Under the pieces are notes generated by a model. It was given only the letters and a program-made list of their open reading frames with translations, made no database searches and was not told where the DNA came from. Below are positions 33,525-62,437 of a DNA stretch of 64,000 bases, piece by piece. A program made the position numbers and the translations under genes. How positions within the stretch are numbered: position 1 is the first letter of the stretch; each line of letters opens with the position of its first letter. The DNA is taken from positions 23,839,036-23,903,035 of the forward strand of contig OY811971.1 of NCBI GenBank assembly GCA_963681505.1, given 5' to 3'. The stretch is from Eunapius fragilis. Taxonomy: Eukaryota > Porifera > Demospongiae > Spongillida > Spongillidae.

Positions 33525-34526
33525 TCAGTTTTTCTTCAATGCTACTTGGAGTCTTTCATCAATTTCTCTAATTGCAATGTGTAAGATGGATAGTCTTCTT
33601 CTTGGATCAGAATGATAAGTTGGAGAAATGTTCAACAAAAAAACAGAAACATCTTGAATATCCTCAAATAATGCTTTGTAGGAAGTTAAAAACTTTTCAG
33701 ATTTCTCACACTTTGCTTTTGGTATTGGGTCTTGAATAGTAATCTGAACACCAATAAGGACGGATTTATTTTTTTTATCAATACGTCTATCTTTTTTCCT
33801 TGTAATGTGGATCATAGCATCAACATAAGGATGACAAGTATTATCCGGTTTATATACAACAATGCCAGCTACTTTCTCCACTTTAATTTTTACATCTTCA
33901 GAAAAATTTACAACCTTTATTTTGCTAAGCAAATGATCTTTTTCGTCTGTACTAGCATCCACAATTGATTTGCGCAACACCTGCATTAACACAGGTGCAG
34001 TGGACAAAGACATATTAACTGCTTCTTCAACTCTGTAACCAGCAATAGCAGGATTTTTTCCCCTTGACACAGAGTTAATAAGATTCACAAACATAGTACT
34101 ACGCGAAAATTCTTGGTAGTCTGACATTACCTTCAAAGCAATACGCCTAATTGCTTCACCTAAAACATGACCTCTGCCATCTGCAGAGCGATAGAAATAC
34201 CGCAGATCAATACAACCACAACCTACATTTTGATTGCACAAATAGGAACACATAGTTTTTAGAGTATTAGGGACATCTCTGGAATCATCGATGTATTTTT
34301 TCAGTGATTCATATATTCGTAGCTTTTCCATAGTTTCCGTGAACTGATTCAGAGCCAATTTATATGTCCATTCTCTTGTTTCATTCTTAGGCTTTAAAAA
34401 ATATGAAAAAAATAAAAAATTTCTACCAGTTTCAATCTCAATTGTATCCAAGATATCTTGTTCTGAAGCATCTGGTGATATGGGAAGGAAACGTTTACAG
34501 TGTTTCAAACAAGCCTTCCATTCTAC
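33525..34526 (-). CDS. Last exon: Crinkler/RHS-type nuclease domain
   Basis: The exon encodes 333 residues and ends in TGA. It opens directly at a splice acceptor (minus-strand TCCTTTACAG before 34526) in phase 0; an in-frame TGA lies just upstream, so an upstream exon is required. The N-terminal part (VEWKACLKH, FLPIS) matches the end of the NTPase module of Crinkler/RHS-type proteins. The C-terminal part shows the family's restriction-endonuclease-fold signature: a conserved E (YRVEEAV, about residue 183), D in VVYKPDNTCHPYVDAMIH (about 235-250) and the Q-x-T strand VLIGVQITIQDP (about 270-280). In known members this domain is a predicted DNase effector; activity here is not shown. It joins in frame to the exon at 61395-62116. 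Confidence 0.75.
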   Translation of the reverse strand, partial: VEWKACLKHCKRFLPISPDASEQDILDTIEIETGRNFLFFSYFLKPKNETREWTYKLALNQFTETMEKLRIYESLKKYIDDSRDVPNTLKTMCSYLCNQNVGCGCIDLRYFYRSADGRGHVLGEAIRRIALKVMSDYQEFSRSTMFVNLINSVSRGKNPAIAGYRVEEAVNMSLSTAPVLMQVLRKSIVDASTDEKDHLLSKIKVVNFSEDVKIKVEKVAGIVVYKPDNTCHPYVDAMIHITRKKDRRIDKKNKSVLIGVQITIQDPIPKAKCEKSEKFLTSYKALFEDIQDVSVFLLNISPTYHSDPRRRLSILHIAIREIDERLQVALKKN

Positions 34527-35990
34527 CTGTAAAGGAGCAATTCATAAAAATCAGCATAAAACAATTTGGCACTTAATGTCTTGCAGTCCATAATGGGCTA
34601 ATCAGGGGTTAACGCCATAGTTATTGATGTGATGGTTCCTTCTCACGTTATAAAAGAATATTGTACAATTTTTAGAGCAGTCACCCTCATTGGCACTTAC
34701 TCATGGTAGGATCATTTTATGAATGGCAAAAATCACATCATTGTGCTTAATGCACACATGCACGACAGTTCTCAACAATATGGTGGCACATTTGGACTGA
34801 TTGATATACATTTGCACTAAAAGATATGAAATGCAGTACTTTCCTTCGGCAAATAAACATTTAATATAATTAGTAACCCTTCACAGATAATATTAATACA
34901 AGCATTAACAATTGAGGGTTAATTATAGTGGTAAACCCCAGTGTTGGATAAATGGGGGGGGGGGGGGGGGGTCGAGGGGTCGTTGGTGTCTAGACCCCCC
35001 CCCCTCAAATCTGATGATGAATAAAATTAAGTATCAATACTATTAACGAAAGCAATTAAAAACACCGCATGTGATATAGCGTGTCATCCAGTGCACAAGT
35101 GCCGAACCCCCAAAAAAGCTTCCACGCTTTACAAGAGAGGGGGCACACCCCCTCCCCTGTTGATTATTCATGATGGACCCCCCTTCTAAGATTCCTGTGT
35201 CTGCCCCTGAACCCTGAACTGCAGGACATTAAAGTTTATTCATCCAATACCAGCTAATTGGCAACAAATTGAAACACCCTCAATGGTTTTAATTACTAAT
35301 TTGTAAGTGGATATGAAGAATTTTCAACAGGCAGGTTAATGCGAAGATTATACAGTTGTCTCTTACAATACTATTTCTCCTGTCATTTGCAGAGGAATGG
35401 GACAATCAATAATGCCCTTTCTGGCATCAACCACCAGAAATGGGTCAATGACAAAACGAAATATGCTTCACCCTAATAGGACAGTGGGACATGAGAAACT
35501 CCTGTTGTTAAGAAACACATGGATATCATTTCAAAGGAGGAGTTTTCATAAAAAGGTATGCCATATCATGCACAATAATATAATTTGCGATGTATAGACT
35601 GAGGTTAATAGCACTAAGTTAACAAATAATCGATCAAACTGAAAAAGTCCCGAGTATTTTTGAGAACATATTCTGCAAAGCCTTTAGTTGCGATAGAAGC
35701 TGATGTTGATGTGGACAACCACCTAAAGCTAGACTAATTGTGGTTATGGGAGACGGACCATGTTTGATGGGTAGAGTGGATACGGCTGATGGAGATAGAT
35801 CGGAAGACACTGTCGAGATTCAAACTTGGCAATCCACCAAGTGCCCAGTCATGTACTGGTTTCTCGTCTGGAGATTTCACTTCAACGATACAGTGGCTTG
35901 TTTCACAATGAATAGGCTAGGTGATTCACTTCAAAGCAATTTTGATTTTCTAGATTATGGGAATTTTTTATGTCATTTTTTTCATTATGA
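34527..35990. other. Intron sequence without a recognisable gene
   Basis: AT-rich. Contains a G-run at 34957-34972 followed by an inverted C-run, and one exon-like piece near 35392-35555 (acceptor TCATTTGCAG, donor AAAAAGGTATGC on plus) with no recognisable domain. Confidence 0.5.
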
Positions 35991-36382
35991 CATAAATGCC
36001 AGATTGTGAACACATCACACATGGGGAAAGTTGCCACCAACGTCTTCAGCTGAAATGGAGAAATGGTTTGGAATAACGTTTGCTAGGACATTATTTAAAG
36101 ACCACAGTTGTAACTTACGGCAGACTGAGACACATGCTGAGAGTTGTCACTTGCCTGCTGCATTTGGCACAAGGTTTGGTATGTCCCGTAACAGGTATGA
36201 TGGCTACCAGAGCAATGTCTTATCGATGCTTTCAATACCAACAGAACGAAAGTTGTCAGCCCTGGGACATTTCTTTTGTTAGATGCAATAATGAGTTCCT
36301 GGCTGGGACTAGAGTGGTACTATTCATTGACTGGCATACCACACAAAACCAAGATAAAGCGAAAAGCGAAAACTTCACATGA
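35991..36382 (+). pseudogene. piggyBac-type transposase relic, N-terminal half
   Basis: The frame reads PPTSSAEMEKWFGITFARTL and later FGMSRNRYDGYQSNVLSML, the pattern of the helical region before the catalytic core in DDE_Tnp_1_7 (piggyBac) proteins, where an EM..FxxI..xM helix is followed by MSRNRF. A second frame continues as PWDISFVRCNNEF to 36382. At least one frameshift. No catalytic Asp is present in this half. It may be the other half of the relic at 43437. Confidence 0.5.
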
Positions 36383-36985
36383 CTTGTCTGTGTTTTTAAA
36401 CAAGGTGCTAACTATAACTCTTTGAGCATCAAATGGATGACATAGTTAATTCGTTATTTGTCAGCAATGTTCTTAAATATGGCACCCGTTGCTTAGTTGT
36501 TCGTTGTTCTTGAACAATCTAGTGGCTAGCCTACTTCAAGATAATAACTGTGATATAGTAGCAATTTTATGATTTTTCAATATATTTGGTGTACTAGCTT
36601 GAAAAAGAACGGTTGCCAACAACACTCGATTAGGTGCAGCACCAAGTGGGACAGGGATTCAAAACAGTACAAGAGATACTATGAAACAAAATACAATAGT
36701 TGAACTCCTGGGTGTTATTTCCAACGTCTAGGTAATTAAAAAAGCTTTGCTCTTCTCTATTTTCATAGAACAAGCAGGTGTTTATTCTAAGGAGTTGGAT
36801 ACAGTACAGACGCCATTATGCACACACTTGCAGCTGTTAGTTCCTGCTTTCCTTTCAATTGAATACTAACACTGTAGGAGTATTTGTGTGCACGAAGTAA
36901 CAGTTTTACACAAATTGGTTTCTATACTACGGTTAAATAAATGTGTACTTTGCGGTCAAAGAGTTAAGTGACTGTTTATCTCTCT
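36383..36985. other. Intron sequence without a recognisable gene
   Basis: AT-rich sequence; no ORF or repeat match noticed. Confidence 0.5.
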
Positions 36986-37941
36986 GGCGACCAAACCAAT
37001 TACAATTAAGACCTCATTTTATGGTTACATGTACATCACCGAGATGTCCATATTTAGTAGCAATTTAAGGAACACGCCCCCCAACGGTTATGGAGATCGG
37101 TTACTGATCATCATTACTTGGAGGTCTGTTGGGGCTAAGGGCTATATGGCTGCAAAAATTCGAGTTAAGCTCCACTTTTTAGGAATCGTATTGCAAAATG
37201 CCTACAGTTTTTATATGGCAATATGATACTATTCATATGCTGTCAGTATGAAATATTCGCCAAGTTGAGTTACATTTTATCATACAGGTGATAAAACGTA
37301 ACCCCCCCTTTAAAACCCGTAATGAATAATTATCATTAAGAATTAATGCGAAGTAAAGATGGCTGAAATTCGTAATACAACTGCAGCTCTGCGAGCAAAC
37401 AAACGACAAGGCAGTATCATGATGTTATGTAGTGTTGTGCGCATGATATAATAAAGAAGCGTTGGCGACTGGGGCTCCGCACCAGATCCCCTACCCCGCT
37501 TCATGAATATTAATTAGCACCCCCCTTTTCTGAAATCCTGGATCTGCCCCTGCTGCAGCACCCATCCGACATCACCAAAATAACGTCACAGTTTTGACGT
37601 CAGAGTGGACGAGAGTTGCAATGCGTATACGGAAAATTGAACAGAATCCAGTAAGATAAGAATTTTTAAACTTTAGTATCAATGTAACTACTGATAGCGA
37701 AGAAATCAAGGCATAAAAATGGCAAATAAAAACTGTAGGCATTTTGCAATATGATTCATAAAACGTGAAACTGAACTCAAATTTTTGAATTGTACAGCCC
37801 TTAACCCCAACAGACCTCTAAGTAACGATGATCAGCAACTGACATCCATACCTGCTGGGGGTGTACCTCAAATTGCTAACAAAATGGACACCTAAGTACA
37901 TATTTTAAAAAGAGGCCTAAACTGTAATTGGTTTGGTTGCC
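36986..37941. repeat. Foldback element, two inverted arms of ~240 bp
   Basis: 36986-37230 and 37710-37941 are inverse complements at about 80 percent by eye: GGCGACCAAACCAATTACA, GATCATCATTACTTGGAGG, TCTGTTGGGG, GCAAAATGCCTACAGTTTTT. The right arm is cut by the Gmr1-like insertion at TTGCC and continues after it at 43148 (AGACAG, ACAGACACTTAT), matching the outer end of the left arm. Confidence 0.8.
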
Positions 37942-38210
37942 TGTGATAGAGTCCGTTATCGCGCCCACGACGCTCGCCGTATTGCGCCCAGGATACTTCA
38001 ACTTATTCTCTTGTCAATTGCACAGCGTGTACATATTTATACGCGACTAAGGTTGAGAACCTTACACCTCTCTATGGAGAGTGCGTAACAATTACATAAA
38101 CTATGCACACCAACAATAATGTTCTGAATCACTTGAATAGGGGTTGCTCCCGCCCGACATTCAGCGTGTGAATCGTCTCATTCACCTCCATGGAAGACTG
38201 GGCTTCCACA
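37942..38210 (-). repeat. 3' LTR of the Gmr1-like element
   Basis: In element sense it starts TGTGGAAGCCC and ends GACTCTATCACA. The last 27 codons or so of the Pol ORF lie inside this LTR. Confidence 0.95.
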
Positions 38211-41200
38211 CTCCTCTCCTCCTCTCCTACAACAAACTTGTTTGTTGCCCATCGTGAGAGACAGTCTGCATTCCCATTAGCCTTGCCAGGTCTATGCTCC
38301 ACTGTGTACAGATAAGGCTGTAGTGAGAGACTCCATCTGCATAACCGGGGGTTGCTCTCCTTAAGCTTATCTAACCATTCGAGTGAGCGATGATCCGTTT
38401 GGATGGTAAATCTTCGTCCCAACAAGTACACTCGAAATGCCGCGATCGCGAGTTTAATCGCAAGACATTCCTTCTCAACAGTCGAGTATCGCTCCTCTCT
38501 TGGTAGAAATTTCCTGCTGTAGTACGCAACAGGGTGTTCCTCCCCATCAGCTCCATGTTGGCTCAGGACCGCTCCCGCTCCTCTATCTGAAGCATCGGTT
38601 TGGAGAACAAACGGTTGTGTGAAATCCGGGCTCTTCAGAACAGGGTCACAACATAGACACCTCTTAAGCGTTTCAAAAGCCTTTGTACACTCCTCGTTCC
38701 ACTCTACTACGTTTGGCGACGTCCTTCTAGTTAAGTCTGTCAACGGTAACGCTATCGTAGCATAGTCTGGGATAAATCGACGGTAATATCCCGTAAGACC
38801 CAAAAATCCTCTGACCTCCCGCTTAGTCTCAGGACGAGGGAAGGATTCGACAGCACCGATCTTATTCGTCTCCGGTCGGACTGTACCGTTCCCCACAACA
38901 TGTCCAAGGTAAACACATTCCTTCATCCCGAATTGACACTTAGCCAACTTCACCGTCAAATTTGCATCCTTGATGCGTAGCAAAACCGTTCGCAAATGTT
39001 CGATATGACCTCTCCATGTACTGCTGTAGATCACCACATCATCTAGGTACGCTGCTGCAAAAGCTTCGCAGCCTCTCACCAAAGTATCCGTGAGTCGTTG
39101 GAAGGAAGCCGGTGCACCATTCAATCCAAACGGCATTACCCGAAATTGAAATAGACCCCTTGGTGTGACGAATGCGGTTTTAGGTCGATCTTTCACGGCC
39201 ACAGGCATTTGCCAATAACCCTTCGTAAGGTCGAGCGTTGAGATATACCTCGCTTTTCCAAGTTGGTCAATGATCTCATCTATTCTGGGCATGGGATATG
39301 CTTCTACCTGTGTAACGGCATTCAGTCGGCGATAGTCAACGCATACCCGCATCGTTCCATCTTTCTTCTTGACCAAGACAATTGGCGATGACCACTCGCT
39401 AGTAGACTGCTCGATGATTCCGTGCTGTTCCATCTCTTCTAACTCCTGGAGTACTGTCTCGCGATATGCATGGGGTAGTCGGTATGGACGCATCCTTACA
39501 GGACGAGCATCTACTGTCCTAATGTGATGCTGCATCAAGTTGGTTCTACCAGGTCGATTGCTGAAGATCTCCTGAAATTCATCCATCACTCCCTTCATCT
39601 GAAAGGCTTGGTCAGTACTTAACTGTTCACCGAAACTCGCCTCGCCCACCGTATCATCCTTCCATGCTGGAATTTCGTCTACTCCTTCCTGTAAAACTTC
39701 TTCCAAAAAACATGTCTCCTCCGAACGCACCTGAAATGCCTTCAGCATGTTCACATGGAAGACTCTCGTTCGTTTCCTTTTGTCGTGCATATCAACCGAA
39801 TAGGTCACCTTGCCCTTCCGTTCTAGCACTTGATAAGGTCCTTGCCACTGTGCTGTGAGCTTGTCTGTCGTCGTAGGTAACAATACTAAAACTGGATCTC
39901 CGGATTTGAATTCCCTCAAACGTGCCCTCTTGTCGTACCACTGTTTCTGTGCTCCCTGCCGTATCACTAGGTTCTCCTCTACTATGTCGGCCATCTCCTT
40001 CAACCGTCGCTGCGTCTCCAATACATGGCTAACAACCGTTTCCTCGCTCTTGGGGCTCGCTTCCCACGTCTCACGTAGGATGTCTAAGGGGCCTCTCACA
40101 TCTCGACCATACAATAGCTCGAATGGGGAAAACCCTGTAGAAGATTGTGGCACCTCGCGGTACGCAAATAGCAAATATGGGATTTGCTTGTCCCAGTATT
40201 TCCCTCCGTCATGCGCCGTCTTCCTCAGCATTCCCTTCAACGTTTGATTGAACCGCTCGACGAGACCATCCGTCTGAGGGTGGTAGGGACTAGTTCGGAT
40301 CGCCTTAACCCCCAGCAGTCGGTACAATTCCGCCAGCAGCTGTGACATGAAATTACTGCCTTGATCCGTGAGGATTTCCTTAGGCACTCCCACTCTAGCG
40401 AATAACTTGATTAGTTCTTCCGCGATATGTTCCGCGTCGATGGTTCTCAGTGGTATGGCTTCAGGGTAGCGCGTAGCATAATCGCACACCACCAGAATAT
40501 AACGATTTCCCGCTTGGCTGCGAGGCAGGGGACCCACTATGTCCATGGCCACTCTGCTGAATGGTTCCGATATGACCGGTAGTGGTACCAACGGAGCTGG
40601 CTTTACCCCTCGCTTAGATGACTTCTGACAAACCCGGCAACTCTTGCAATACATTTCCGTATCCTTGAATAAGGACGGCCAATAAAACCTGCGTAGAATA
40701 CGCTGCCTTGTCTTATCACGGCCTTGGTGCCCAGCCATAGGAATATCGTGGGCCAACTCTAACACTGTTTTCCTGCACTGCTTCGGCAAGACCAGTTGCT
40801 CCCACTCATACTCCTCGCTGCGTCCTGGAGGTCTCCACCTCCGATAAAGCAGACCATCTCTCTTGAAGAACTCCTCATTAGGGCCGTTAGACTGTTCAGC
40901 CTTCTCCCACACTTCCCGGAGCGATGGATCACACTGTTGTGAACGACCAAGATCCCTTGATGATATGTTGAGGCCCTTTTCTCCTGGTACCTCGTTTCGA
41001 GCATCTGGGGTCAACACGATCTGGTTCAGGCCCGTACTGTCCGGCCGCTTAGCTGGACCAATCGCCGCTTCGACGTTGGTAGCCTCGTGTCGTTGCCCTT
41101 CTGCTATTTTCCCGGCCAAACGTAACTGTTCCTGGCCATCCTCTGGAATAGCGTTTGGCCGTACTCCTGACCGTTCCTGCCGTGCCCTTCGAACCATTTC

Positions 41201-42790
41201 TTCTTCTAGCTGCTGTCTGGCTCGTGCTCTTGTTAGCACCACCATTACGTCTTCTTGTCGAGGCCACGCCGGCTTAGCCTTGTCTCGCTTTGTAGTCCGA
41301 TCCCTTATTAGGTTGCCCAACTCGGGAACGTCTGTCCCCAGTATCACGTCAACTGGTAAACGTTCGGCCACTGCCGCCTCGACCTTAACTGGGACTCCCC
41401 GTATGTGTAGGGTCAAGTCCGCTAGGTTGTACAGCTTAGTGTCTCCGTGAGCACAACGAATGGACACCATCTTCCCGTCTATGATCTTCTCGGTGGGAAC
41501 CCACTGTTGCCTCACCATTGTTCGGGTACAACCGGTGTCCAACAGTATTCGGGACACTTTCCGTCCCTCCACTAAACCTGCTACCCATGGTCCCGACTGT
41601 GTAATATCGGCGTCTTCGAAACACATCAACACTTTTTCAGGGCATTCTCGAGATACGTGCCCCTGCTTCTTGCAGTTGAAGCACCTTAGTCTTGCCTTTT
41701 CTGCACCTCCTTTGCTCGTGCTTGCCTTCTTGCGACACTCCTTTTCCATGTGCCCAAGCAAGCCACAATAATCGCACCTCGGCGTTAAATTGGTTTGGCT
41801 CATGGGTTTCTGGGTACCCACCTGATGACCATACCGCGCCTTCTGTAAACCAGGCTGCCTCGCCTGCTCGTATTCATCCGCCAGTTCGCCTGCTGCGATA
41901 CTCGTTTTTGGTTTCTTCTCCATCACCCAAAGTTTCTGCTCGGGGTTACTCAGTGTTTCCAAGAACTGCTCCTTTCCAATAAACTGCTGCACGTCATCGA
42001 CTGTCTTACACGTCTTCGTCCATTTCTGGAGTAGATCCATCAGCCGAACTGCAACCTCGCGATTAGTTTCGCCGTCACTCCGTGATGAAGAGCGAAACCT
42101 CTTCCGATAGGCTTCCTCGTTTATATCATACCTCGCCAGTACCGCAGCCTTGATAGCGTCGTAATCGGCAGCGCTTTCTGACGGGAGAGCCGCAAATGCC
42201 AACTGGGCCCTACCTGTTAACTGCGGTGTCAAGAATTGCGACCATCGGCCTTTATCAACCTTCTGAGCCGTCATTATTCTTTCAAATGTGACCAGATATG
42301 CCTCAATGTCATCCTTCTCGGAAAGGGATGCCAGCTTCACACTTAACCCCACTGGGTTCTTAGATCCTCCTGGCGTCTCAGTCGGAGTTTTCACTAGTCT
42401 GACTAGTGCCTCCATGCGCTCCTGCATCTCCCTACGTTCCAACACGAATTGTTGCTCCCGTATCTTCCGCTCTTCCTCCAGCCGCGCTCGCTCGCCGGCT
42501 TCCTCCTTACGTCGCGCTTGCTCTATTTCTTCACGTCGCTGTCGCTCTTCCTGCACCCGTCGCGCCTGCTCTTCCGCCTCCTCCTTACGTCGCGCTTGCT
42601 CTACCGCCTCCTCCTTACGTCGCGCTTGCTCTAATTCGTCACGTCGCGTTCGCTCTTCCGCTTCCTCCTTCCGTCGCGCTCGCTCGTCCTCTTCGTACCG
42701 GCGGCGATCTTCCATAAGCGCCTTGAGAATTTCTTCCATACCCTCTGCTATCGTCGGACTTTTATATTCTTTACCGGAACGCGTGGTCAT
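38129..42790 (-). CDS. Gag-Pol polyprotein, Gmr1-like (integrase before reverse transcriptase)
   Basis: 1,553 residues from ATG at 42790 (MTTRSGKEYK). Order: charged coiled-coil rich in RRKEEAEE (about 30-125); capsid with a SCAN-like helical region (about 210-310, containing YRKRFRSSS, LLQKWTKTC, GKEQFLETLSNPEQKLWVME); two CCHC knuckles, CDYCGLLGHMEKEC and CFNCKKQGHVSREC (about 337-390); aspartic protease LLDTGC (about 420); integrase HHCC zinc domain (about 690-725) and DDE core with D in MDIVGPL, TDQGSNF and GLVERFNQTLKG (about 750-860), then a GDPVLVLLP linker; reverse transcriptase with VDYRRLNAV and YLDD (about 1120-1330); RNase H starting QTDASDRGAGAVL (about 1390-1510). Integrase lies upstream of reverse transcriptase, the reverse of the usual gypsy order and the mark of Gmr1-like elements. 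No stop or frameshift. All catalytic residues I can check are present. Confidence 0.95.
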   Translation of the reverse strand: MTTRSGKEYKSPTIAEGMEEILKALMEDRRRYEEDERARRKEEAEERTRRDELEQARRKEEAVEQARRKEEAEEQARRVQEERQRREEIEQARRKEEAGERARLEEERKIREQQFVLERREMQERMEALVRLVKTPTETPGGSKNPVGLSVKLASLSEKDDIEAYLVTFERIMTAQKVDKGRWSQFLTPQLTGRAQLAFAALPSESAADYDAIKAAVLARYDINEEAYRKRFRSSSRSDGETNREVAVRLMDLLQKWTKTCKTVDDVQQFIGKEQFLETLSNPEQKLWVMEKKPKTSIAAGELADEYEQARQPGLQKARYGHQVGTQKPMSQTNLTPRCDYCGLLGHMEKECRKKASTSKGGAEKARLRCFNCKKQGHVSRECPEKVLMCFEDADITQSGPWVAGLVEGRKVSRILLDTGCTRTMVRQQWVPTEKIIDGKMVSIRCAHGDTKLYNLADLTLHIRGVPVKVEAAVAERLPVDVILGTDVPELGNLIRDRTTKRDKAKPAWPRQEDVMVVLTRARARQQLEEEMVRRARQERSGVRPNAIPEDGQEQLRLAGKIAEGQRHEATNVEAAIGPAKRPDSTGLNQIVLTPDARNEVPGEKGLNISSRDLGRSQQCDPSLREVWEKAEQSNGPNEEFFKRDGLLYRRWRPPGRSEEYEWEQLVLPKQCRKTVLELAHDIPMAGHQGRDKTRQRILRRFYWPSLFKDTEMYCKSCRVCQKSSKRGVKPAPLVPLPVISEPFSRVAMDIVGPLPRSQAGNRYILVVCDYATRYPEAIPLRTIDAEHIAEELIKLFARVGVPKEILTDQGSNFMSQLLAELYRLLGVKAIRTSPYHPQTDGLVERFNQTLKGMLRKTAHDGGKYWDKQIPYLLFAYREVPQSSTGFSPFELLYGRDVRGPLDILRETWEASPKSEETVVSHVLETQRRLKEMADIVEENLVIRQGAQKQWYDKRARLREFKSGDPVLVLLPTTTDKLTAQWQGPYQVLERKGKVTYSVDMHDKRKRTRVFHVNMLKAFQVRSEETCFLEEVLQEGVDEIPAWKDDTVGEASFGEQLSTDQAFQMKGVMDEFQEIFSNRPGRTNLMQHHIRTVDARPVRMRPYRLPHAYRETVLQELEEMEQHGIIEQSTSEWSSPIVLVKKKDGTMRVCVDYRRLNAVTQVEAYPMPRIDEIIDQLGKARYISTLDLTKGYWQMPVAVKDRPKTAFVTPRGLFQFRVMPFGLNGAPASFQRLTDTLVRGCEAFAAAYLDDVVIYSSTWRGHIEHLRTVLLRIKDANLTVKLAKCQFGMKECVYLGHVVGNGTVRPETNKIGAVESFPRPETKREVRGFLGLTGYYRRFIPDYATIALPLTDLTRRTSPNVVEWNEECTKAFETLKRCLCCDPVLKSPDFTQPFVLQTDASDRGAGAVLSQHGADGEEHPVAYYSRKFLPREERYSTVEKECLAIKLAIAAFRVYLLGRRFTIQTDHRSLEWLDKLKESNPRLCRWSLSLQPYLYTVEHRPGKANGNADCLSRWATNKFVVGEEERSVEAQSSMEVNETIHTLNVGREQPLFK
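38211..38229 (-). promoter_or_regulatory. Polypurine tract of the Gmr1-like element
   Basis: In element sense AGGAGAGGAGGAGAGGAG directly before the 3' LTR; it also codes for part of the Pol tail (VVGEEERS region). Confidence 0.8.
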
Positions 42791-42854
42791 CCACCGTTCA
42801 ATGATAATATTGGGATCCGCGTGGTATTGTCAACCAACTGTTCGACTGATCGTA

Positions 42855-42873
42855 TCCCACCGCTGCCACCAAA
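42855..42873 (-). promoter_or_regulatory. Primer-binding site of the Gmr1-like element
   Basis: In element sense TTTGGTGGCAGCGGTGGGA directly after the 5' LTR; TGG start complements a tRNA 3' end (..CTGCCACCA). The tRNA identity was not determined. Confidence 0.75.
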
Positions 42874-43142
42874 TGTGATAGAGTCCGTTATCGCGCCCAC
42901 GACGCTCGCCGTATTGCGCCCAGGATACTTCAACTTATTCTCTTGTCAATTGCACAGCGTGTACATATTTATACGCGACTAAGGTTGAGAACCTTACACC
43001 TCTCTATGGAGAGTGCGTAACAATTACATAAACTATGCACACCAACAATAATGTTCTGAATCACTTGAATAGGGGTTGCTCCCGCCCGACATTCAGCGTG
43101 TGAATCGTCTCATTCACCTCCATGGAAGACTGGGCTTCCACA
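42874..43142 (-). repeat. 5' LTR of the Gmr1-like element
   Basis: Identical by eye to 37942-38210 over all 269 bases. It would contain the promoter; a TATTTATA-like stretch lies near the centre. Confidence 0.95.
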
Positions 43143-43436
43143 TTGCCAGACAGAAAAAACAGACACTTATAGATTACTTTGTTTATTGTCATCTAAAAAA
43201 TCATGTGATGTTGTCATATGATGTGATGCAGAAATACATGCTAATTCTAAAAGATGTAATTTGCACCCTTATAGCATATTCTCTATTGTGGAGATATTAC
43301 AGAAAAAGTTTGATTTTCTACTCTGCGACATGGAAGTAGAGCTTTGTGAAAGAACTTTGCGCCAATGCAGCTAACGTATTATGAACAGGAGTATGCTCTG
43401 GAATAGCTGTTATTTTAAGAATGTTGGTTCCATGGC

Positions 43437-52222: not shown

Positions 52223-52227
52223 ATCAA

Positions 52228-52262
52228 CCCCAGCAGGATTCGAACCCTGTGCTTCACACCCA
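52228..52262 (-). ncRNA. tRNA-like 3' half / SINE-type B box
   Basis: On the minus strand CAGGGTTCGAATCCTG forms a perfect T-arm stem and loop and includes a perfect RNA polymerase III B box (GGTTCGAATCC, 52236-52246), followed by CTGGGGT like an acceptor 3' strand. No matching 5' half is found within 75 bases; the palindromic element begins 20 bp away at 52282. It is better read as a tRNA-derived SINE fragment than as a working tRNA gene. Confidence 0.4.
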
Positions 52263-52281
52263 CACAGACATTATTCATATA

Positions 52282-53679
52282 CAGTGGATTTCATGATAGC
52301 TGTCAAAAACATTTCTTGTCAAATAATGTTGTGTTTACTAGAGTATATTTTGACAGTGAAAACAGAAAACGAATATCTGATTGCACAGAAGTCTTTTTTT
52401 AATCAGGTGACTATAATAAAGAGACCAATTAATTGGCTTCAATTGCTAAGATGTTACTATTAAGTGACTGAGAAGTATTTACATCAATTTCCCACTACCC
52501 AGTGAATGAATTGAAACGAAATTCGATGTATAAACTTGAGATCAACGATACCTATCGCTTGACTGAGTCAGTTATTGAACCCGATAAAAAGGTAAGGCGC
52601 TATAGTGCTTGAGAAGCCATCTGAGGCCCTGTAAGGTTAGCATCGCTATTTTGTGTTGCGCTCGTAAAACAGTAAAAGAGTTAGTGAGAAGGTAGAAATA
52701 TCGTTGAACTACCGTATTATAGCTAATATCGGACACTACCATTCTCTTTGCTGTACAAAACATGCTATTGAGTGCGACTGACCAAAACACGTAGCCATAT
52801 TTTCAAGTTGTCTATGAATAAATTAAAATTATTGTGCAACGACGATATTCATTTTCAGTTAGTGGAGGCGGAGGGCGTTGGTGGTGACGAAAATGGTTCT
52901 TTTCAGAACCAACACCTGGGAGAAGCTACAGCAAGTCGTTTGTCAAGGGCGGCTAGTAAAAAAACATCCTATGCTTGGCAGGAGCTAGGGAAACGAAAGA
53001 AGCCTACGTAGGTGCCAAGTGTAGGATGCATATTTACTAGCAGCCCTTGATAAACGACTCACTGTAGCAGCTCCCTCGGGTTGGTTCTGAAAAGAACCGT
53101 TTTTGTCACCACCAACACCTAGTGCCATCACTAACTGAAAATGAATATCGTCATTGCACAATAATCTTAATATATTCATAGAAACTTCCAAATATGGCTA
53201 CGTGTTTTGGTCAGTCGCACTCAAAAGCATGCTTTGTACAGCAAAGTGTGTTTGTGTCTGATATGAGCTATAATACGGTAGATCAACGATATTTCTACCT
53301 TCTCACTAACTCTTGTACTGCGCAACACATAATAACGATGCTAACCATACAGGGCCTCAGATGGCGTCTCAAGCACTATAGCGCCTTACCTTTTTACCGG
53401 GTTCAGTAACTGACTCGGCCAAGCAATAAGTATCGTTGATCTCTAGTTATACAGCGAATTTCATTTCAATTCATTCACTGGGTAGTGAGAAATCGATGTA
53501 AATGCTTTTCAGTCACTATATCTTAGCAATTGAAGCCAATTAATTGGTCTCTTTTAATTATAGTCACCTGATTAAAAAATAACTTCTGTGCAATCAGATT
53601 CTAGTTTTCTGTTTTCACTGTCAAAATAATTCACATTGTTTGAAAAAAATTTTTTTGACAAATATCATGAAATCCACTG
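52282..53679. mobile_element. 1.4-kb palindromic element with TA duplication
   Basis: Two inverted arms of roughly 680 bp meet near 52990. Ends CAGTGGATTTCATGATA (52282) and its inverse complement ending at 53679, with TA on both sides (52280-52281, 53680-53681). Many blocks pair across the centre: GACAGTGAAAACAGAAAAC, AGAGACCAATTAATTGGCTT, AAAAAGGTAAGGCGCTATAG, AGAGTTAGTGAGAAGGTAGA and GAGTGCGACTGACCAAAACA, with scattered mismatches and small indels. No transposase. TA duplication suggests mobilisation by a Tc1/mariner-type enzyme. Confidence 0.92.
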
Positions 53680-53959
53680 TAGTAATAAATAACGTTCCCA
53701 ATCGAATTCTTTTTCCACATATGCTCTCAGCAGTTGTAACAGAGACCTGAGATAAACATTCAAAAATAGACTATACCACACACAACATGTGGCATTAACA
53801 GGCCCCATTCTAGCTATGAAAAGACTCTTCTTGCCATCGTAACTTTGAACAACTCAACTGTACCGTTGGTCTTAATAAAGCTCATTTTACCTCTTGATTA
53901 TGTACTCCTTGCATTGTTTGTGCTAATTTCACATCACGAAATGCTTTATAAGTCTTTAA

Positions 53960-54001
53960 CACCGGGTCCATGAAAATTGAGTACTTTTTTTGTCGAACCC
54001 T
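53960..54001 (+). repeat. Left terminal inverted repeat of the piggyBac-like element
   Basis: About 21 bp of terminal repeat plus the subterminal TTTTTTTGTCGAACCC block, matched by the right end with three mismatches in the terminal part. Confidence 0.92.
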
Positions 54002-54391
54002 CCTTATAAAAAAATTAGTCGGAAAATGCCAATTGTCTGATAATACATGTTTTTATATAGTAAAAGTATCGCCATGACATGTGACATTATTGCCAGCTTT
54101 ATACTTACGTTCGAGGCCAACCTGTATACTTTCAAAGCGACGCGGTTGTGCGTTTTTCGGTAACGAAGCGTTGCGGAGGACACTTTATTTCTAGGCTATA
54201 AGGAGCAGCTTTGAATACGAATTTAATTGTTATTCAGTACGTCTAGAAAGGCACAATTGATACTATTTTTGCAGTTAGCTTAAATCATGTACAATACTCA
54301 CCTGTAGCTGCATAGCGTCATGCCCAGACTTTGATAATGGTTAATAATTCAGTTTGTAGGTTATTAATGATGGATAACGTGATTTGGTATA

Positions 54392-56621
54392 ATGTCTACT
54401 CTTGCATGTTATCCGAAGCATAAGAAGCCGGTATGTGACCGGTGTGATGCACGTACAAACTGTATGTAGGGAAAATCGGTGATAAAATAGCATCAAAGGG
54501 CAAAGTGTTGAAGTGTTTTGAACAATTTAAGGCCCTGAAACTAAGGAAGATAGATGATGTAAGTTATATTGGTACGGTCTTAGGGATGAATGACAAGAAG
54601 AAGTGTATTGTAAAATGGATGGTTGGGGATAAAGAAATAATTCTGGCACATGGTTGTAGACAGATCAAGAATATCTGTGCTTCAATGAATCCAAACACGT
54701 GTTATACGTACACCCGCCAGCAAAAAAGCAGTGGGTGGGAGGAGGCACTGCAAATGATGTGTCTTCTGATGAAGAACGGGATGATGACAGTAATGATCTT
54801 GTCGGTATGTTCAATGATGTCAGCAGTGTCGAAGATCAAGACATTGAAGATAACTCAGAATGCAATAGTGAGGAGGACAATAGTTTACTAGCTCCGCATG
54901 GTCGCCAATGTTATTGCACATCTTTAGATAATTTTGATCCCCGAGCTAGTACTCATCCTCTTTGTCGTTCAGCATACGTCCATATTCATGGGAGGCGTGA
55001 TGCTAGTACTGAGTTCAAAGCGATTGATTTCTTTAGGCTTATTTTCACAGAACAGCTTGCTTCCAACATAGTTTTGTGGACTAATGAAAGCTTAGGATGC
55101 AGTGCAGCACCAGTAAAGCTTTGGGAAGTGTTAGCTTTTGTAGGCACATTACTTGCTATGTCTTTATTTACACTGCCAACTATCAACTCATTCTGGAAAC
55201 AAAGCCCCAATGGCTTTATACCAGCGATGAATTTTGGGTGTAAAACTGGTCTAACTAGGTCTCGCTTTTGGTTATTGTGGACTCATATAAAGTTTAATGA
55301 TTTCAAGCAATCTGTAGCAAGTACGGGAGACCGATTCTACAGCATAAGATATCTAGTATCGCATTTTAACACTACAATGGAACATTTTATGACAGCTGGA
55401 TGGGTACTGTGCCTTGATGAACTGATGTGTCCATGGTTGGGGCTGGATTCTTGGCATCCAGATGGTATGCCACATATTTCTAAAATAATATGGAAACCCA
55501 AAGGTGTCGGTCTTGAGTTTAAGTGTGTGGCCGATGGTGAAACCAAGATTATGTTGTTCTTAGAAATTGTGGAGGACAGTGCTGTAATGCAGACTAAGAA
55601 GTACTACAATGATGAATTTGGGAATACCAAAAAGTCATCCATGGCTACCACATTATGAATGCTTGAACCATGGTTTTCATCTGGTCGCTTAGTTGTTGGT
55701 GACTCTTGGTTTGCATCAGTACAGATGTGCATGGAACTTATGAAGCGGGGTCTATATTTTACTGGTATTGTCAAGACTGCCCACAGAGAACATCCCAAAA
55801 CCCATTTTCAAACAAGAGCATTTGACCAGACCACACAACGTGGGGATTGGAAAACTTTGCATTCAGAATTTGATATGGATGGTACAAAAGTGCGACTGAT
55901 TGCAATGGCTTGGGCTGAACCAGGACCTTCAAAACCTGACGCACCGGTGAAATGTTTTGTAGGAACAGCAGGGTCATCCATTCCTACAATTCCGATTGAA
56001 CGACCCCGTATCCTTGTAAAACCTGATGGAACCTGTGAGAATACGACAAGAATAATTAGGCAAAGTGCTATGATAGCTGATTACCTGAATCATTGTGGTG
56101 CTGTTGATATACACAATCACTACCGGCAGGGAGGTTTGGCTTTGGAGTTAGAACGAACACATGATTGGATAATGCGAGTGTTTCAGACAATCCTTGGAAT
56201 CATGGAGGTCAATTCATACCTAGCATTCAAGAGTGTTACAAAAATGAATGTAATACATAAAGATTTTGTAAATTCTCTGGCTGCTGAGCTCTGTCACTTT
56301 CTGCCATCAAGTTGCGGTGAAGTGGAGACAATGATGTTGCAACCACAGGATATGCCTGGTGATGAAAGGTATGCAGTTAATACACAAGTACGACATGAGA
56401 TAGTTCCAGCATCTTCACTCAAATCTGGTGCTCATGGGCAGTGTAGGGTTCCTGGATGTCTTGGAGATGCTTACATGGTTTGCAAGTCCTGCTCTATTGG
56501 TATCAATACGGATGCACAGAGGTTATATTTTTTGTGTGGCACAGGGGTACCGAAGACTGGAAAAAGTCACAAGCAATGCATTTCAATGCACATTGAATCA
56601 CAACTACTAAAGTCAAACTAA
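54392..56621 (+). pseudogene. piggyBac-type transposase, one stop in the core and two N-terminal frameshifts
   Basis: The probable start is ATG 54392 (MSTLACYPKHKKPVCDRCDA, a cysteine-rich head). Two frame changes follow, near 54468 and near 54700, and then one frame runs from 54699 to the TAA at 56621, broken only by TGA 55656-55658. The DDD catalytic residues of the superfamily are visible: D in VLCLDELMCPW, D in LVVGDSWFAS and D in HCGAVDIHNHYRQG. The C-terminus has the cysteine-rich zinc region (CRVPGC, MVCKSC, FLCG, HKQC). The enzyme would cut at TTAA and reinsert the element by a hairpin intermediate. The TGA falls between the first and second catalytic Asp and may be a CpG-decayed CGA. 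Confidence 0.88.
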
Positions 56622-56636
56622 CTCGCACTGCATCAC

Positions 56637-57027
56637 TGTGCTGGCATGCATGTAGGCACATTATAACACGTGTAAATATTGTTCAATTCATGAAAATGCC
56701 AGCAGTACAAAATAGACTGGGCTGCATGCATGTTCAGATGCAACATGTTACCTATAGCTTCGTGTGAACGCGCTTGTTGCTATATAGTGTTAATTCATGT
56801 AGGCAAGGTCTGATGTGTAATAAACGCTCGAGTTTGTGAAGTTACATATGAAAGCTAGTATAGTTTTGATATCGGTGGTTTCATGTAATGCCGCAAAAGA
56901 AATGAATAAAAATTATTACTGATAAAGTTCGTCAAAATGTTCGCAATACTACACATCGTAGAAAAGTATTTATACTGCGGTATTGTGTACCCTTGTTACT
57001 TAACCATCTCTTTATAGGTTTGTAGCA
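56637..57027. other. Spacer between the two genes of the piggyBac-like element
   Basis: AT-rich non-coding stretch; ATTTATACTGCGG and a pyrimidine-rich CTTTATAG precede the second gene. Confidence 0.5.
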
Positions 57028-57077
57028 ATGATAGATTATTGGCAATGTCCTAAATCCAAACAAACCGTTTCAAAATT

Positions 57078-57119
57078 AACGGGGTATACCCCGTATATAC
57101 GGGGTATACCCCGTACGGA
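57078..57119 (+). repeat. Palindrome of GGGGTATACCCCGT units
   Basis: ACGGGGTATACCCCGT occurs twice around a TATAT centre within the reading frame (YTPYIRGIPRT region). Each unit is itself a perfect palindrome. Confidence 0.85.
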
Positions 57120-58775
57120 ACTAGCACCATTAAAGCATGATATCGCCACCATGTACAAGGTGTACTCTGAGAGGTTCAAAGATGATATTCCTGGGAAGGC
57201 ACCTATTGGAAGGTCGATATTCTACTCCATCGCCAAAACTATCACCGGAGGAGGAAAGCAGCAGGAGGCGCGTGCATGAGTAGACTATATTAAGGTGAAC
57301 TTCCACACTGACAACTTTGCCATTATGGACAAGGTTATAGATCTGCTAGCACCTCTCTCAGACCTGGACCACACCCTGCGTGATGAGCTGCATCTTCTCC
57401 GTACTGATGTGTATACCTTCCTCAGTTACGGATATGCAGTGAATGTTAAGGAGGGTGTCAAGGCATCAGATGAGCATGCAGGGCACTGCCATATACATGT
57501 ACCTCAGGTGCATGAAAATCAGCTGTTCAATGCATACCAGGAACTGGAAAAGTTGGCTTCTCAATCTGACAGGTTTGATGAAGCAGCATTTCAGAAGGTG
57601 TTTGTGGACCAGGTATGTAACCAACTGATTCTGTGTGAACAATCAGGGGGAACTGTGGCAAGTGACAGCAGCAATGCCACCACACACTCACCAGTGTTTT
57701 CCCTTGACCTGGCTCCTCAAAGGAAGCCCAACAAAACATCGAAGGCTGGTGGTCACCTTGACTGCAGTGCCTGCAGAAGTCCGTTCCTCTTCTATGATAA
57801 GTTGAGGAAAGTGTGCATGGCCAAAGTGGACGAGGATCCTACCAGGCTATCCGAGGTAGCAGATATCCTTCTCACGATACATCAGTGTGAGCGTCACACA
57901 TACCGATACATGGCTCATGATATGTTAGCATCCCAGCAGGCATACCACATGAAAAAAGCCATTGCACAAATGGACTCGGATACTGCTTACATGGTCTTCG
58001 ACTTTAAGCAGAAGTTCCTGGCAAAGGGTTTCCGTGAAGGTGGGGATTCTTATTATGTGAAAAAAGGAATACTGTGGTGGGGAGCTGGTGTGTATGTTAA
58101 GGCCGACTCCAAGCAGGATGGCAGGTGCATCAGTAAGTCAAGTGATGCACTCTATGTGGAGATTGACTTTACCAGAGACAAGGCACGATTGCGGAACCTG
58201 AACATGGAAATAGAAGAGTGTGGCATGGTTAGTGAGTTGACTGCTGAGAGTATTGAAGGGATTGATGGTGCTACAGAGGATGCTTGTGGCATGGAGGGTG
58301 ATGAATTAGAGTGGAAGGGTGTTGGTGAAGATGAGGGTGTTGAGGGTGATGAATTTGAGTGGAAGGGTGTTGGTGACGATGAGGGTGTTGGGGAAGAGGA
58401 GGGCTTTGGGGAAGAGGACTGTGGGGAGGGGGAACAGGATTTTGGGGATGAGGGCTGTGAAGAGAGGGGGGTTTCGGGGAGAGCGAAGGATATTTTGGGG
58501 AGGGAGAGGAAGAAGGTGATATAGAGTCTGAAGAGGATACTGGTGAGCAGGAGAGGGAGGATGCTATGATGGAGGAGGGGAAAGATTGCCAGGCTGAGGG
58601 GGAGGTGGGAGATATGGAGGAGGAAGGATCAGATAAGGTTGCTCTGCATTTCATCGATTGCATTGTTCAAGATGAGCAGAAGGCTGATGCCAATGCTGTT
58701 CTGTCATGCTTGGAGGCAGCAATGCATGCCTTGAAAAATCGATTTCCCTATCTGACCAAAATTATCCGTATCGCA

Positions 58776-59175
58776 CCGTATCGCACTGCATCCATCCCTG
58801 CAATACCTGGCATATCAACCTTTTATGCAACCCAATACGTAACAGTTGCTGGTGAGCAGCAGATGTGGATGTTTGACTGCCTGGGGCAGAAGGTACCATC
58901 TTTGTGTGTGCCCATTGTTTCGTGCCATGCATCATCAATGATTTCCCCAATGGGTAAGGAGGGCATCAACTTCACAGGTGTTACGGTAACTCTTAACAGT
59001 GATGGTTATGATGTGTGTAAGCAAGTGAGGAAGGAAAGGAGGCGATACAGAAAGAGATGTCTGAGTATAATGTCTAATGTCCTGGGCGTGCTCCGCGGTG
59101 CACATTTGTACACCGCGGGGTACGCATAAAAGGTTATATGCCAGGTATTGCAGGGATGGATGCAGTGCGATACGG
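58776..59175. repeat. Inverted repeat pair of ~52 bp
   Basis: 58776-58828 (CCGTATCGCACTGCATCCAT to TTTTATGC) is the inverse complement of 59124-59175 with one indel. The right arm lies inside the MITE at 59071-59777; the left arm lies in the coding frame exactly where the DDE-like motif after YLTKII is expected. Confidence 0.85.
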
Positions 59176-59777
59176 AGCCCCATAATCTGGTTTCACCAAT
59201 AAAACAGTAGTATTTCTTACAGATGTATTGACAAGTGCCACAGCTAGTTGTTTGGGTGTGGAGACCTTCCTCCCTCCCTTTCCCTGTGCTAGATATGCAT
59301 CCACTTGGGTCTGCTGGTGAGAAAAATGGGTGTCGCACACATCCTTGCCGCTTTGCGCCTCATTGTGGAAGTAACCTACCTAGTTCAAACCTGCAGCTGA
59401 GGAGACATAAGGTAGAAATAGCTTAGTCTGCTTCCCAGCCAAGTTTTTTGGCATTGTGACAATAATATCTTTCGCTGCTAATACAACAAGTCGCCACAGC
59501 GGAGGTACACTGTACGGCGAGTATACGCGGTAATTGAAAAATAATAATAACGTACGTACCGGAAGTTTCGCGTACCTCCGCTGTGACAAGTTGCTGTAAG
59601 AGCAGCGAACGGTATTAGGCCCTCAATGCTTCGGCCCAAGCAGGTAAGGACTAATACAACGTGGCGTAACAGTCAAACTTCACTAGAATGCTGAAAAGGC
59701 AGAATGCAAAAAACTTTGTTTTGCGTACACCGCGGTGTACAAACGTGCACCGCGGAGCACGCCCAGGACATTAGACA
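59071..59777. mobile_element. 707-bp MITE splitting the second gene
   Basis: TGTCTAATGTCCTGGGCGTG at 59071 and its inverse complement ending at 59777; the inverted match continues through CTCCGCGGTGCAC and TGTACACCGCGG. ATAA stands on both sides (59067-59070 and 59778-59781). Leaving the insert and one ATAA aside, the frame before (RCLSI) and after (KREEHRVEKQHRDEE) is continuous, which supports the boundaries. Confidence 0.88.
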
Positions 59778-60967
59778 ATAAGCAAGCGAGAGGAACATCG
59801 TGTAGAGAAGCAGCATAGGGATGAGGAGGCATTGAATGCCATACGCATTGTATATCCTCAGTGCACTGTGTGCTTGTACCACTTCAAGTCCCAAGTATTG
59901 CTTGAAGGTCATGTATGTGGTGGTTTGAATGAGCCTAAGGATGCTCTCAGTGTTGCGATGAAGTATGCCAACCAGCTGCTTACCAAGATGAACTTCACTA
60001 CTAGAGGTGCAATTGATCAAGCATCAGTCATGTTTCAGATGGAAGGTACCAGTGATATTCTGTTTGCAAGTTTTGAGCCCAACTTTTTCCTGGCTGGGCA
60101 CACATAAGAAAAAACATACATCGTGAGCTGACTAATAAAGTCAGTAGTGTAATTCATGAATGCTGGAAAGCTGGTGAGAAAAAAGGCACTGGTAAGGTGA
60201 AAATATCAGCTGATGGGGTATTTGAAAGACTTGAGGAGATGCTGTCTCAAAATTTGATCCGTTGAGTGAGCTGCCTGTAGTTGGGAAGATTCGTGCTGTG
60301 TATCAAAGTGTTGGAAACAAACCCCAGGCATCAATTGGAGTTCGTAAGCGTGGTAGGCTTCATGATTCTGGTAGTGGAGACTGTTAAGGAAGAAATGTGA
60401 AAAACAGGGTGTCCTTTGAACAGCTTGATGTAGGTAAGGAACTGTCTACCTGGAAAAAGCCAGAGCTTGAAGGATACCTCCATCATTTCCAGCTCAAGAA
60501 GTCTGGGAATAAGACTGACCTCATCAAACGTGTAGAAGAACATATGGCTATGCAATAAGATGTTTCATTTGTTCATACTTGTATAACTATTCACACGATC
60601 GGGTTAACGCGTACAGCGTTAATAACATCGCACTATTACCAATACTTGGGTCTGGGGCCGAGACGCTAACAGGGAGATGTCTGTTTCGACGCTAGCGTAG
60701 TCGTTTATTGCCAGAATAAGTTTGAACCCTACTTATCGAATAAAGGTGAGCATATTTATACTATTTTTCAATACCAAAACCGCGAGACAAAAAAGTGTCT
60801 CGATTCCGGTTCTCGGTCTTACCCTTCAGCTCTAACATAATGTAGCTTATGAAGGAAAGTAGTTGCAGGCCTGGGAACGGTTCCAAACTTCATGTAAAGA
60901 GTTGTATCTTGGAAAAATGGCATTTTAGGCAATTGGAACCATTCCGACAAATTTTCCTAAAACGTGA

Positions 60968-61015
60968 GTTCGACAAAAAAGGCTCTAAAAGAATTCGATT
61001 TTCACGGATCCGGTG
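60968..61015 (-). repeat. Right terminal inverted repeat of the piggyBac-like element
   Basis: Inverse complement of the left end, with an 8-bp longer spacer before the TTTTTTGTCGAAC block. Confidence 0.92.
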
Positions 61016-61394
61016 TTAAAATAAAAATACTGCAAGGCTCTCAAGTTAAGATACGAACTAGTCTTAAAACTGTTTTCGCATATCCAAACCATAGCTACAA
61101 TGGCGTACATTTACCTTCTTGGCTCGTTCGATTAACTGCGTGGAAGGTTATAGATAGGCCCACTTTAACGGCTTGGTGTACAAGTAAGGCATAGATATCT
61201 CGGCCCAAGCCTAAAAGGACTTCCTCTACGTGTCTGTAGCATGCAATGTTATTTGGTCCCTTCGTAGACCAAATGGTAAATACATTTTAGGTGTCCACCC
61301 TACACCCCTGGGGTAAACATTCAGGACAATAGATAACTTAATTATCTTACTTTTTTGAGATCAAAGACACATCAACGAAGCATTAGTAACATAC

Positions 61395-62116
61395 CTCGTC
61401 AAGACATCCAAACATCTCAAGAACATTTGTATTGCGCTGCTTTGATATTAAATCTTTACCAATGTGATCAGTGACAGTTGCACATCGAACAGCAATACTG
61501 GATGACAAGCACAGATTTAAAAATTTGGTTGCTGATTTGTCCTCTGTAAGTACATTCACATGGTCTACAATAAACAGCAAATTGTTCTGTGAAAAACAAA
61601 ATTCTTGTATGGCTTCTGCAGTATTAAGCAAATAAATCTCACGTCTTTTTTGAAACTCAGCAGGAGATGAAAATGCAATCAGCAAAGCATACTTCATTTC
61701 TTGAATGTAATTATCAACAAAGTTTATACAGTCAGGAATATATACTACCCGATAATGAAAGCTGCCGTGATAGTACTCCCATTTCAGTTGGAATGCAAAG
61801 GCTGCTAGCATGTATGTTTTTCCATATCCTGGAGTACCAGTTATAAACATTTTCTTCCACGGTCCATTTAAATGATTTCGATACTGACATCCTTCAACCT
61901 CTAGATCCCTATCTTCGCACAGCAGATTTCCAATTGAAGCAAACAGTCCAGACATCTGTTTTCTGCCGATAAAAATAAACTTTCCATTACTCTGGATGCA
62001 AATGTGACTATTATTCATTAGATATCCTCCCAAATAGGGCAATTCACGCTCTTCATCACAGTTTGCTAATATTGTCCTATCCACATCATTGGTTCCCATA
62101 ACGTTTGAATGTATTG
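61395..62116 (-). CDS. NTPase exon of the SAM-NTPase-nuclease gene
   Basis: 722 bp, about 241 residues, beginning AIHSNVMGTNDVDRTI and ending VLEMFGCLDE at the donor GAG/GTATGT (intron from 61394). It holds a P-loop NTPase: Walker A in MFITGTPGYGKTYMLAAFAF (about residues 95-112) and a Walker B-like NNLLFIVDHVN (about 185-195). The pattern KxxFxTGTPGxGKTxxxxxxxxxL..xxxVVYIPDC is that of the NTPase module of Crinkler/RHS-type proteins. The end FGCLDE and the start VEWKACL of the exon at 34526 combine into the G-x-L-x-x-x-E-W motif that normally closes this module, both in phase 0. Splicing joins it upstream in phase 1 to the SAM exon. Confidence 0.8.
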
Positions 62117-62177
62117 CTGTGTATAAGATAAGCTTCAGTGAACATGACAGCAAAGCTTATAATAAAATTAACAGTAC

Positions 62178-62437
62178 CCTGCACTTTTTTTTCACATATT
62201 CGCACTGGTTCACTTTCTGTAATAAGTAGGTCCTGTATTACTTTATGAGCGAAAAATGCTTGCGCATAGTTCAGTTTGAAACAGTTTTTAAGGTCTGTCA
62301 CATTTAGAACAGCGAGTACATTACCTTGAAAATGTTGTGCTCTACACTGTAAAGCAAATGCTTTACAACCTGGTATTGACATAAAATACTCCACTATATC
62401 TTCTTCAGTCCAATCTTCAAAACGCTTGCCAACACCA
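62178..62437 (-). CDS. SAM-like exon of the SAM-NTPase-nuclease gene (5' part missing)
   Basis: 260 bp, 86 full codons plus split codons at both ends. Acceptor TTGAATTTTCAG before 62437; donor CAGG/GTACTG at 62177. It encodes RFEDWTEEDIVEYFMSIPGC, then HFQGNVLAVLNVTDLKNCFK and YAQAFFAHKVIQDLL, the five-helix pattern of a SAM domain (W..EDV..F......F....I.G..LL.L...DL...). SAM domains mediate protein-protein contacts and are known to precede NTPase or death-type modules in sponge immunity-like proteins. The 61-bp intron to the next exon (62117-62177) has GT-AG ends and restores the frame. The first exon(s) must lie further upstream; I could not identify them up to 64000. Confidence 0.75.

Follow-up and report, generated by a model that had tools for sequence, protein, structure and literature searches.

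The window analysed here, a 64,000-nucleotide stretch of the sponge Eunapius fragilis (C1:23839036-23903035 of assembly GCA_963681505.1, which comprises 218.9 Mb in 24 contigs designated C1, C2 and so on), appears to carry on its minus strand a single gene encoding a SAM domain, a P-loop NTPase, a linker and a restriction-endonuclease-like C-terminus, and this gene probably belongs, as a divergent member, to the Crinkler-RHS (CR) class. We assign this reading a probability of about 0.57. The exons are referred to in order as e1, e2, and e3, the window copy as A, and two further copies as B and C.

Exon order across the long intron

The coordinates, phases, and splice-site dinucleotides of the three minus-strand exons were all as given in the initial annotation (Table 1), and the 61-bp short intron described there was confirmed; copy B shares its splice sites. 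Exon e1 is read from its second base, e2 from its third, and e3 from its first, and the spliced frame comprises 660 codons and a TGA stop (86 codons in e1, 240 whole codons in e2, and 333 codons plus the stop in e3). The donors read CAGG/GTACTG and GAG/GTATGT, and the acceptors ACACAG/CA and TTTACAG/GTA. A splice acceptor, TTGAATTTTCAG/T, lies directly before e1. Read upstream without splicing, the e1 frame meets a stop within a few codons, and its first methionine, residue 19, falls within the SAM domain. Another exon is therefore expected on the 5' side, and e1 is probably not the first. None of the inspected upstream open reading frames (ORFs) of at least 90 codons could be assigned as this exon. 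Unspliced e2 reads into intron 2 and stops at the fourth intron codon, so that a short SAM-NTPase isoform produced by read-through is possible.

Genome-wide DNA searches recovered two occurrences of e2 and three of e3. Copy B, located on C1 at a distance of 0.52 Mb from the window and on the same strand, has all three exons arranged as in the window and keeps all four splice sites as well as the acceptor before e1, with one inserted nucleotide breaking the frame of its e3. Copy C is inverted and has an e3 with an open frame together with stretches of the intron (matching window 32-47 kb), whereas its e1 and e2 were not found. At E≤0.1, e1 has only two genomic matches, and C1 carries both.

When the e2 protein alone was used as the genome query, two diverged loci were recovered, on C6 and C5. 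At both loci the next ORF downstream of the NTPase on the same strand is e3-like, within about 3 kb at C5 and 2 kb at C6. As a control, e3 was ranked against 994 ORFs of at least 60 residues drawn from the window and 21 loci (22 sources in all), leaving out sources with e3 copies B and C, short search loci, and low-complexity and satellite ORFs. Non-self ranks 1-3 (scores of 62, 57, and 56) were taken by the ORFs downstream of the C5 and C6 NTPases, followed by the C6 NTPase ORF (48) and by other loci from 43 down. Best local scores were also compared with 1000 shuffles in each of ten comparisons. Exon e2 scored 111 against C5 (shuffle maximum 58) and 107 against C6 (maximum 54); e3 scored 62 and 56 against C5 (maximum 54 in each case) and 57 against C6, a score reached by 1 of 1000 shuffles. 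The third C5 piece and the tail of the C6 NTPase ORF match e3 at chance level (113 and 325 of 1000 shuffles reached the score), and three comparisons between C5 and C6 were non-significant (77, 28, and 261 of 1000).

The C5 NTPase exon ends TAT/GTGAGT and the next exon follows TTTTTTTACAG/GATGAA, giving a phase-0 intron of 1,233 bp at approximately the same position as intron 2; the local alignments end about 47 residues before and 21 residues after the junction, and the correspondence was judged by eye. At C6, the NTPase and nuclease-like ORFs share one frame with a single stop between them. No credible match to a SAM header was found upstream of the C5 and C6 NTPase exons. Comparison of copies and paralogues thus places the NTPase and the nuclease-like part in one polypeptide, in the order seen in CR proteins.

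From these arrangements it is highly probable that e1-e2 and e3 belong to one gene spanning 34527-61394, as the initial annotation had proposed. The join had been argued from a motif rebuilt by splicing; it stands, carried by the paralogues in the same genome and not by that motif. Two separate genes, or a wrong assembly join, would fit the 26.9 kb of transposon-bearing sequence between the parts, the lack of any observed transcript, and the e2 read-through that would permit a short isoform, yet the identical order at two places on C1, the adjacency of NTPase and nuclease-like ORF at C5 and C6, and the finding that neither the 134-kb nor the 60-kb stretch used in the comparison contains a run of at least 5 N make such an explanation very hard to sustain.

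Table 1. Features of the window gene and of its second intron (positions in the window)
Feature	Position	Strand	Remarks
e1, SAM-domain exon	62178..62437	-	open frame, 260 nt; copy B holds e1 with 5 substitutions
SAM domain	62257..62415	-	residues 8-60 of P0002; assigned by phmmer against PDB
Intron 1	62117..62177	-	61 bp, GT-AG; same sites in copy B
e2, P-loop NTPase exon	61395..62116	-	open frame, 722 nt; homologous to the C5 and C6 loci
Walker A, GTPGYGKT	61815..61838	-	G93, G96, G98, and K99 identical in three diverged copies
Walker B-like strand, LLFIVD	61563..61580	-	L180, V183, and D184 identical in three diverged copies
Intron 2	34527..61394	-	26,868 bp, phase 0, GT-AG, transposon sequence; compare the phase-0 intron at C5
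Segment of intron 2 without a copy B match at that place	54463..58293	+	piggyBac-type transposase with one stop
Young long terminal repeat retrotransposon in intron 2	37942..43142	-	5,201 bp, identical 269-bp terminal repeats, target repeat TTGCC
e3, linker and nuclease-like C-terminus	33525..34526	-	1002 nt, ends TGA; also in copy B (1-nt insertion) and copy C (open)
RHS-profile match	33645..33962	-	e3 residues 189-294 on TIGR01631 Trypano_RHS 605-708 of 761
Candidate restriction-endonuclease-type motif, YVD(236)A ... VQ(261)IT(263)	33738..33827	-	no usual Lys

Domains encoded by e1 and e2

By sequence comparison, e1 is a SAM domain, in agreement with the initial annotation, and is of the polyhomeotic/L3MBTL type. 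A phmmer search against PDB matched the SAM domain of polyhomeotic-like 3 (4pzn; E=3e-4, residues 8-56) and L3MBTL3 (E=0.0085, residues 8-60). The Pfam model SAM_KIDINS220 reached 16 bits, below its cut-off of 27, and the first six Foldseek rows were polyhomeotic/Scm SAM entries with weak E-values of 0.2-1.1. The single-sequence AlphaFold2 (AF2) model of e1 is mostly helical (pLDDT 72). In polyhomeotic, L3MBTL, and Scm proteins the domain is fused to chromatin domains, whereas here it precedes an NTPase and a nuclease-like end. No match to a Crinkler header was found in the Pfam scan, which covered e1, e2, and e3.

Exon e2 is identified as a P-loop NTPase, again as annotated, by the Walker A motif and the Walker B-like strand, both kept in three diverged copies, and by its NACHT/AAA matches. 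The best Pfam match is NACHT (21 bits, E=3.1e-4, cut-off 26.7), followed by nSTAND3 (E=0.0084), while the best NCBIfam model is DnaI-like (E=4e-5). Among 15 rows from PDB sequences the best is DnaI (E=0.0085), and PADLOC returned MTase_II (9.7e-4) and IetA (0.037).

The ranking of the Pfam matches raises the question of whether the protein is of the NACHT/STAND (NLR-like) type with an odd tail instead of a CR protein. A SAM family is found at the N-termini of fungal NLRs (PMC9815663), and the sponge genome holds a large NLR-type repertoire: NACHT matches at E≤0.001 number at least 53, lie on many contigs, and cluster on C5, C3, and C1. The window is absent from these matches, however, e2 falls below the NACHT cut-off, and its best NCBIfam model is not a STAND model. 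The Walker B-like strand of e2 ends in VDH, unlike the acidic form of the NACHT Walker B motif, and e3 has no Pfam match and a single NCBIfam match, to RHS. We consider a NACHT/STAND identity improbable.

Relation to the Crinkler-RHS class

The C-terminus of e3 weakly resembles the trypanosome RHS profile at the sequence level. The match to TIGR01631 (E=7.5e-4, 17.8 bits) places 106 C-terminal residues of e3 on the end of the profile and is the sole NCBIfam family at E≤1; when e3 was shuffled, all five resulting sequences were without an NCBIfam match at this threshold. The spliced protein gave E=5.3e-4 over the same stretch, indicating that e2 adds almost no RHS-profile signal. No Pfam family matched e3 at E≤1, PDB sequences returned one row (E=0.54), and PADLOC returned BrxC (0.019). 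PF07999 gave no match, and neither did its control, which makes this result uninformative. The candidate motif stretch of e3 aligns with C5 (Q-I-T) and C6 (K-V-T). Of 20000 shuffles, 2155 contained a loose form of the motif pattern, which in e3 itself first matched outside this stretch, so that the motif alone is no evidence. The profile match and the domain order make this part a putative nuclease in fold and activity.

This order is the one expected for the class. CR-restriction endonuclease (REase) proteins typically carry the ATPase in front and the REase after it (PMC11342252), and the commonest Phytophthora form consists of an NTPase, a helix-turn-helix (HTH) domain, and an REase (PMC5289972). 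CR proteins have been described from parasites, free-living eukaryotes, land plants, and trypanosomes (PMC5289972).

More conventional RHS-profile proteins exist in the same genome. A TIGR01631 search at E≤10, which gave no matches in any of 14 control genomes, identified six loci with E-values from 1.9e-8 to 0.006 and frames of 536-567 codons, the NTPase part being what the profile matched. One of them is at C1:11306360 and the other five are on C2, where four fall within 0.35 Mb. Three of them, L046, L047, and L048, were read in part, each as one long ORF without an intron in the stretch read. L046 matches TIGR01631 positions 250-658 (E=3e-11). Near their ends, L046 shows D...LQITRSINHPI and L047 shows D...FQFTTREYHPI; L048, the weakest, is 55% identical to L047. 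The D...QxT arrangement of L046 and L047 is shared with e3. The C5 NTPase matches L046 significantly at the P-loop (0 of 500 shuffles). For e2, no RHS-profile match was obtained in the NCBIfam scan, and P-loop similarity was the only resemblance to L046-L048. As judged from these comparisons, the window gene and the RHS-profile proteins are not closely related.

Several results weigh against placing the window gene in the CR class. The TIGR01631 score lies far under the curated cut-off (17.8 versus 89.75 bits), so that membership of the trypanosome RHS family itself is not supported, and none of six C5 and C6 pieces matched the profile at E≤1. The six candidates scored in the genome search include neither the window nor the C5 and C6 loci. 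Comparisons of e2 and e3 with L046-L048 were not significant, the best (e2 with L048) being reached by 20 of 500 shuffles, and hhalign and HMM comparison with these loci aligned the P-loop only, with a shuffled decoy outscoring the real sequences. The AF2 model of e3 alone is unusable (pLDDT 37). The usual restriction-endonuclease motif carries a catalytic Lys, which is missing in e3, where D236 and Q261 are present and T263 stands in its place; the Lys may not be defining here, because L046 and L047 also show QxT. The coding differences between A and B, scored singly, comprise 12 nonsynonymous and 2 synonymous changes, against an equal-rate expectation of 79:21; two codons carry two changes each.

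CR membership is nevertheless likely. Of the kinship to Crinkler and RHS proteins proposed in the initial annotation, the domain order and the sub-threshold match stand, whereas a listing of the window in the genome-wide profile search and a match in the C5 and C6 pieces did not materialize. The nuclease assignment likewise keeps modest support from that single match and the domain order, set against the missing Lys and the unmatched paralogous pieces. Profile searches of the exons, which had been proposed as a check, returned a SAM model below its cut-off and the weak RHS match at the end of e3, also below its cut-off, with no Crinkler match.

Compared with the NTPase-HTH-REase proteins of Zhang et al. 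(2016), the window gene shares an NTPase followed by a nuclease-like C-terminus, the RHS-profile resemblance there, and an extra leading domain, and it differs by its SAM header, the very long intron, the weak match, and QxT in place of the usual motif. The N-terminal header is Ubl/Crinkler in oomycetes, and the headers that a review lists are Ubl, Myb-type HTH, and 'various unrelated alpha-helical domains' (PMC5289972). Trypanosome RHS proteins, for their part, differ in that the window gene scores far below their cut-off, leaves the NTPase part unmatched, and sits in an animal-type genome. An animal setting and the NTPase-REase order are shared with Tribolium Medea1, a beetle selfish element linked to the CR class, and with the CR-NTPase8/CR-REase7 mobile elements; the passage on Medea1 mentions no SAM domain (PMC11342252). 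The Glu position of the motif is Gln in e3, with no His three residues on (by eye), and no drive phenotype is known for the window gene. Among the papers listed in literature searches, judged by title and opening of the abstract, none reported a sponge Crinkler, although the CR survey of Zhang et al. (2016) may include sponge or SAM-headed members. No relatives were found in viral and prokaryote contig collections, which says little about other animals.

Decay, retention, and possible role

As the initial annotation had stated, intron 2 is filled with transposon sequence, including a retrotransposon and a piggyBac-type transposase (Table 1). Large transposon-filled introns are ordinary, and the length of intron 2 has no special meaning. 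The retrotransposon carries one frame of 1566 codons, whose domains run from capsid (SCAN) through zinc knuckle, protease, integrase, and reverse transcriptase to RNase H. Its site is empty in copy B, indicating that the element most likely arrived after the A/B duplication. The position of the integrase before the reverse transcriptase is the Gmr1-type order. The Gmr1 clade is found in several animal phyla (PMC8556966). Opposite the piggyBac-type segment copy B has 368 unmatched bases, so that the site there is not cleanly empty. In copy B (C1:24398801-24422226), much of the block matching window 37053-54332, minus the retrotransposon, is present twice in tandem, lengthening the intron. Within intron 2, window 57280-59129 (plus strand) holds overlapping long frames of 414 and 222 codons with no Pfam match at E≤0.001. 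Beyond the gene, window 858-8862 is a satellite in which a 17-bp unit recurs about 471 times and several frames stay open, with a similar array to the left of copy C, and window 12083-12850 (plus strand) is a peptidyl-arginine/agmatine-deiminase-like frame (Pfam PAD_porph, E=2.8e-78).

Outside the exons, four aligned blocks with 18,415 sites show 216 differences between A and B. The exons together are not significantly slower (14 of 1984, p=0.07), and neither e1 (5 of 260) nor e2 (7 of 722) is slowed. Exon e3 alone is slowed, differing at 2 of 1002 sites (Fisher p=0.0017; p=0.027 against 16 of 1785 in its own block), and between A and C at 4 of 1002 sites compared with 30 of 2605 (p=0.035). 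The other family copies observed (B, C, C5, C6, C9, and C19) are broken or truncated. The regions C9:3610746-3626000 and C19:2838001-2853278 are 99.7% identical over at least 15.3 kb, and each holds a decayed C5-type NTPase fragment.

These observations bear on whether the window gene is a decaying transposon-derived selfish element, its copy here a recent relic without present host function. Such an origin would account for the inserted nucleotide in e3 of copy B, the missing e1 and e2 of copy C, the in-frame stop at C6, the frame breaks (or unrecognised introns) in the C5 nuclease part, and the stops in the C9 and C19 copies. It would also agree with the nonsynonymous share of the A-B coding changes (12 of 14, near the equal-rate 79%), with the p-value of 0.07 for the exons together, and with the known CR-type mobile elements of animals, of which Tribolium Medea1 is an example (PMC11342252). 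An open frame of 660 codons with GT-AG sites in the window copy and the slowed change of e3 in both comparisons are not what a relic would lead one to expect, and we regard this alternative as plausible but doubtful. The picture looks mixed, with an open window copy in a family that appears to decay quickly.

If the window gene is a CR-type gene, the SAM domain would cluster the protein or dock it on another SAM protein; polyhomeotic-type SAM domains polymerise. The NTPase would serve as a nucleotide-driven switch, and the C-terminal domain would act on nucleic acid inside the cell, being directed at invading or mobile DNA or else serving as a selfish toxin derived from a transposon. In the reviewed CR model, the REase carries the toxicity and the NTPase regulates the REase (PMC5289972). 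Nucleotide switching, target, and role, including an immune or conflict role, are putative for the window gene, and sequence cannot tell apart three possible targets, namely invading DNA, transposons, and the embryo, the last being that of Medea1 (PMC11342252). A more speculative proposal, which we consider unlikely, is that a CR-type NTPase-nuclease was domesticated in an early animal for nucleic-acid defence within the cell, in which SAM filaments or foci and a nucleotide-licensed NTPase would allow the tail to cleave or trap foreign or mobile DNA. If this were true, the gene would parallel, in an animal, the filament-forming nuclease defence of bacteria. A SAM-headed, intron-bearing version beside six more conventional RHS-profile loci would suggest that the CR class also diversified inside animals, and it lets one ask whether animals retain this class for defence or just harbour a parasite.

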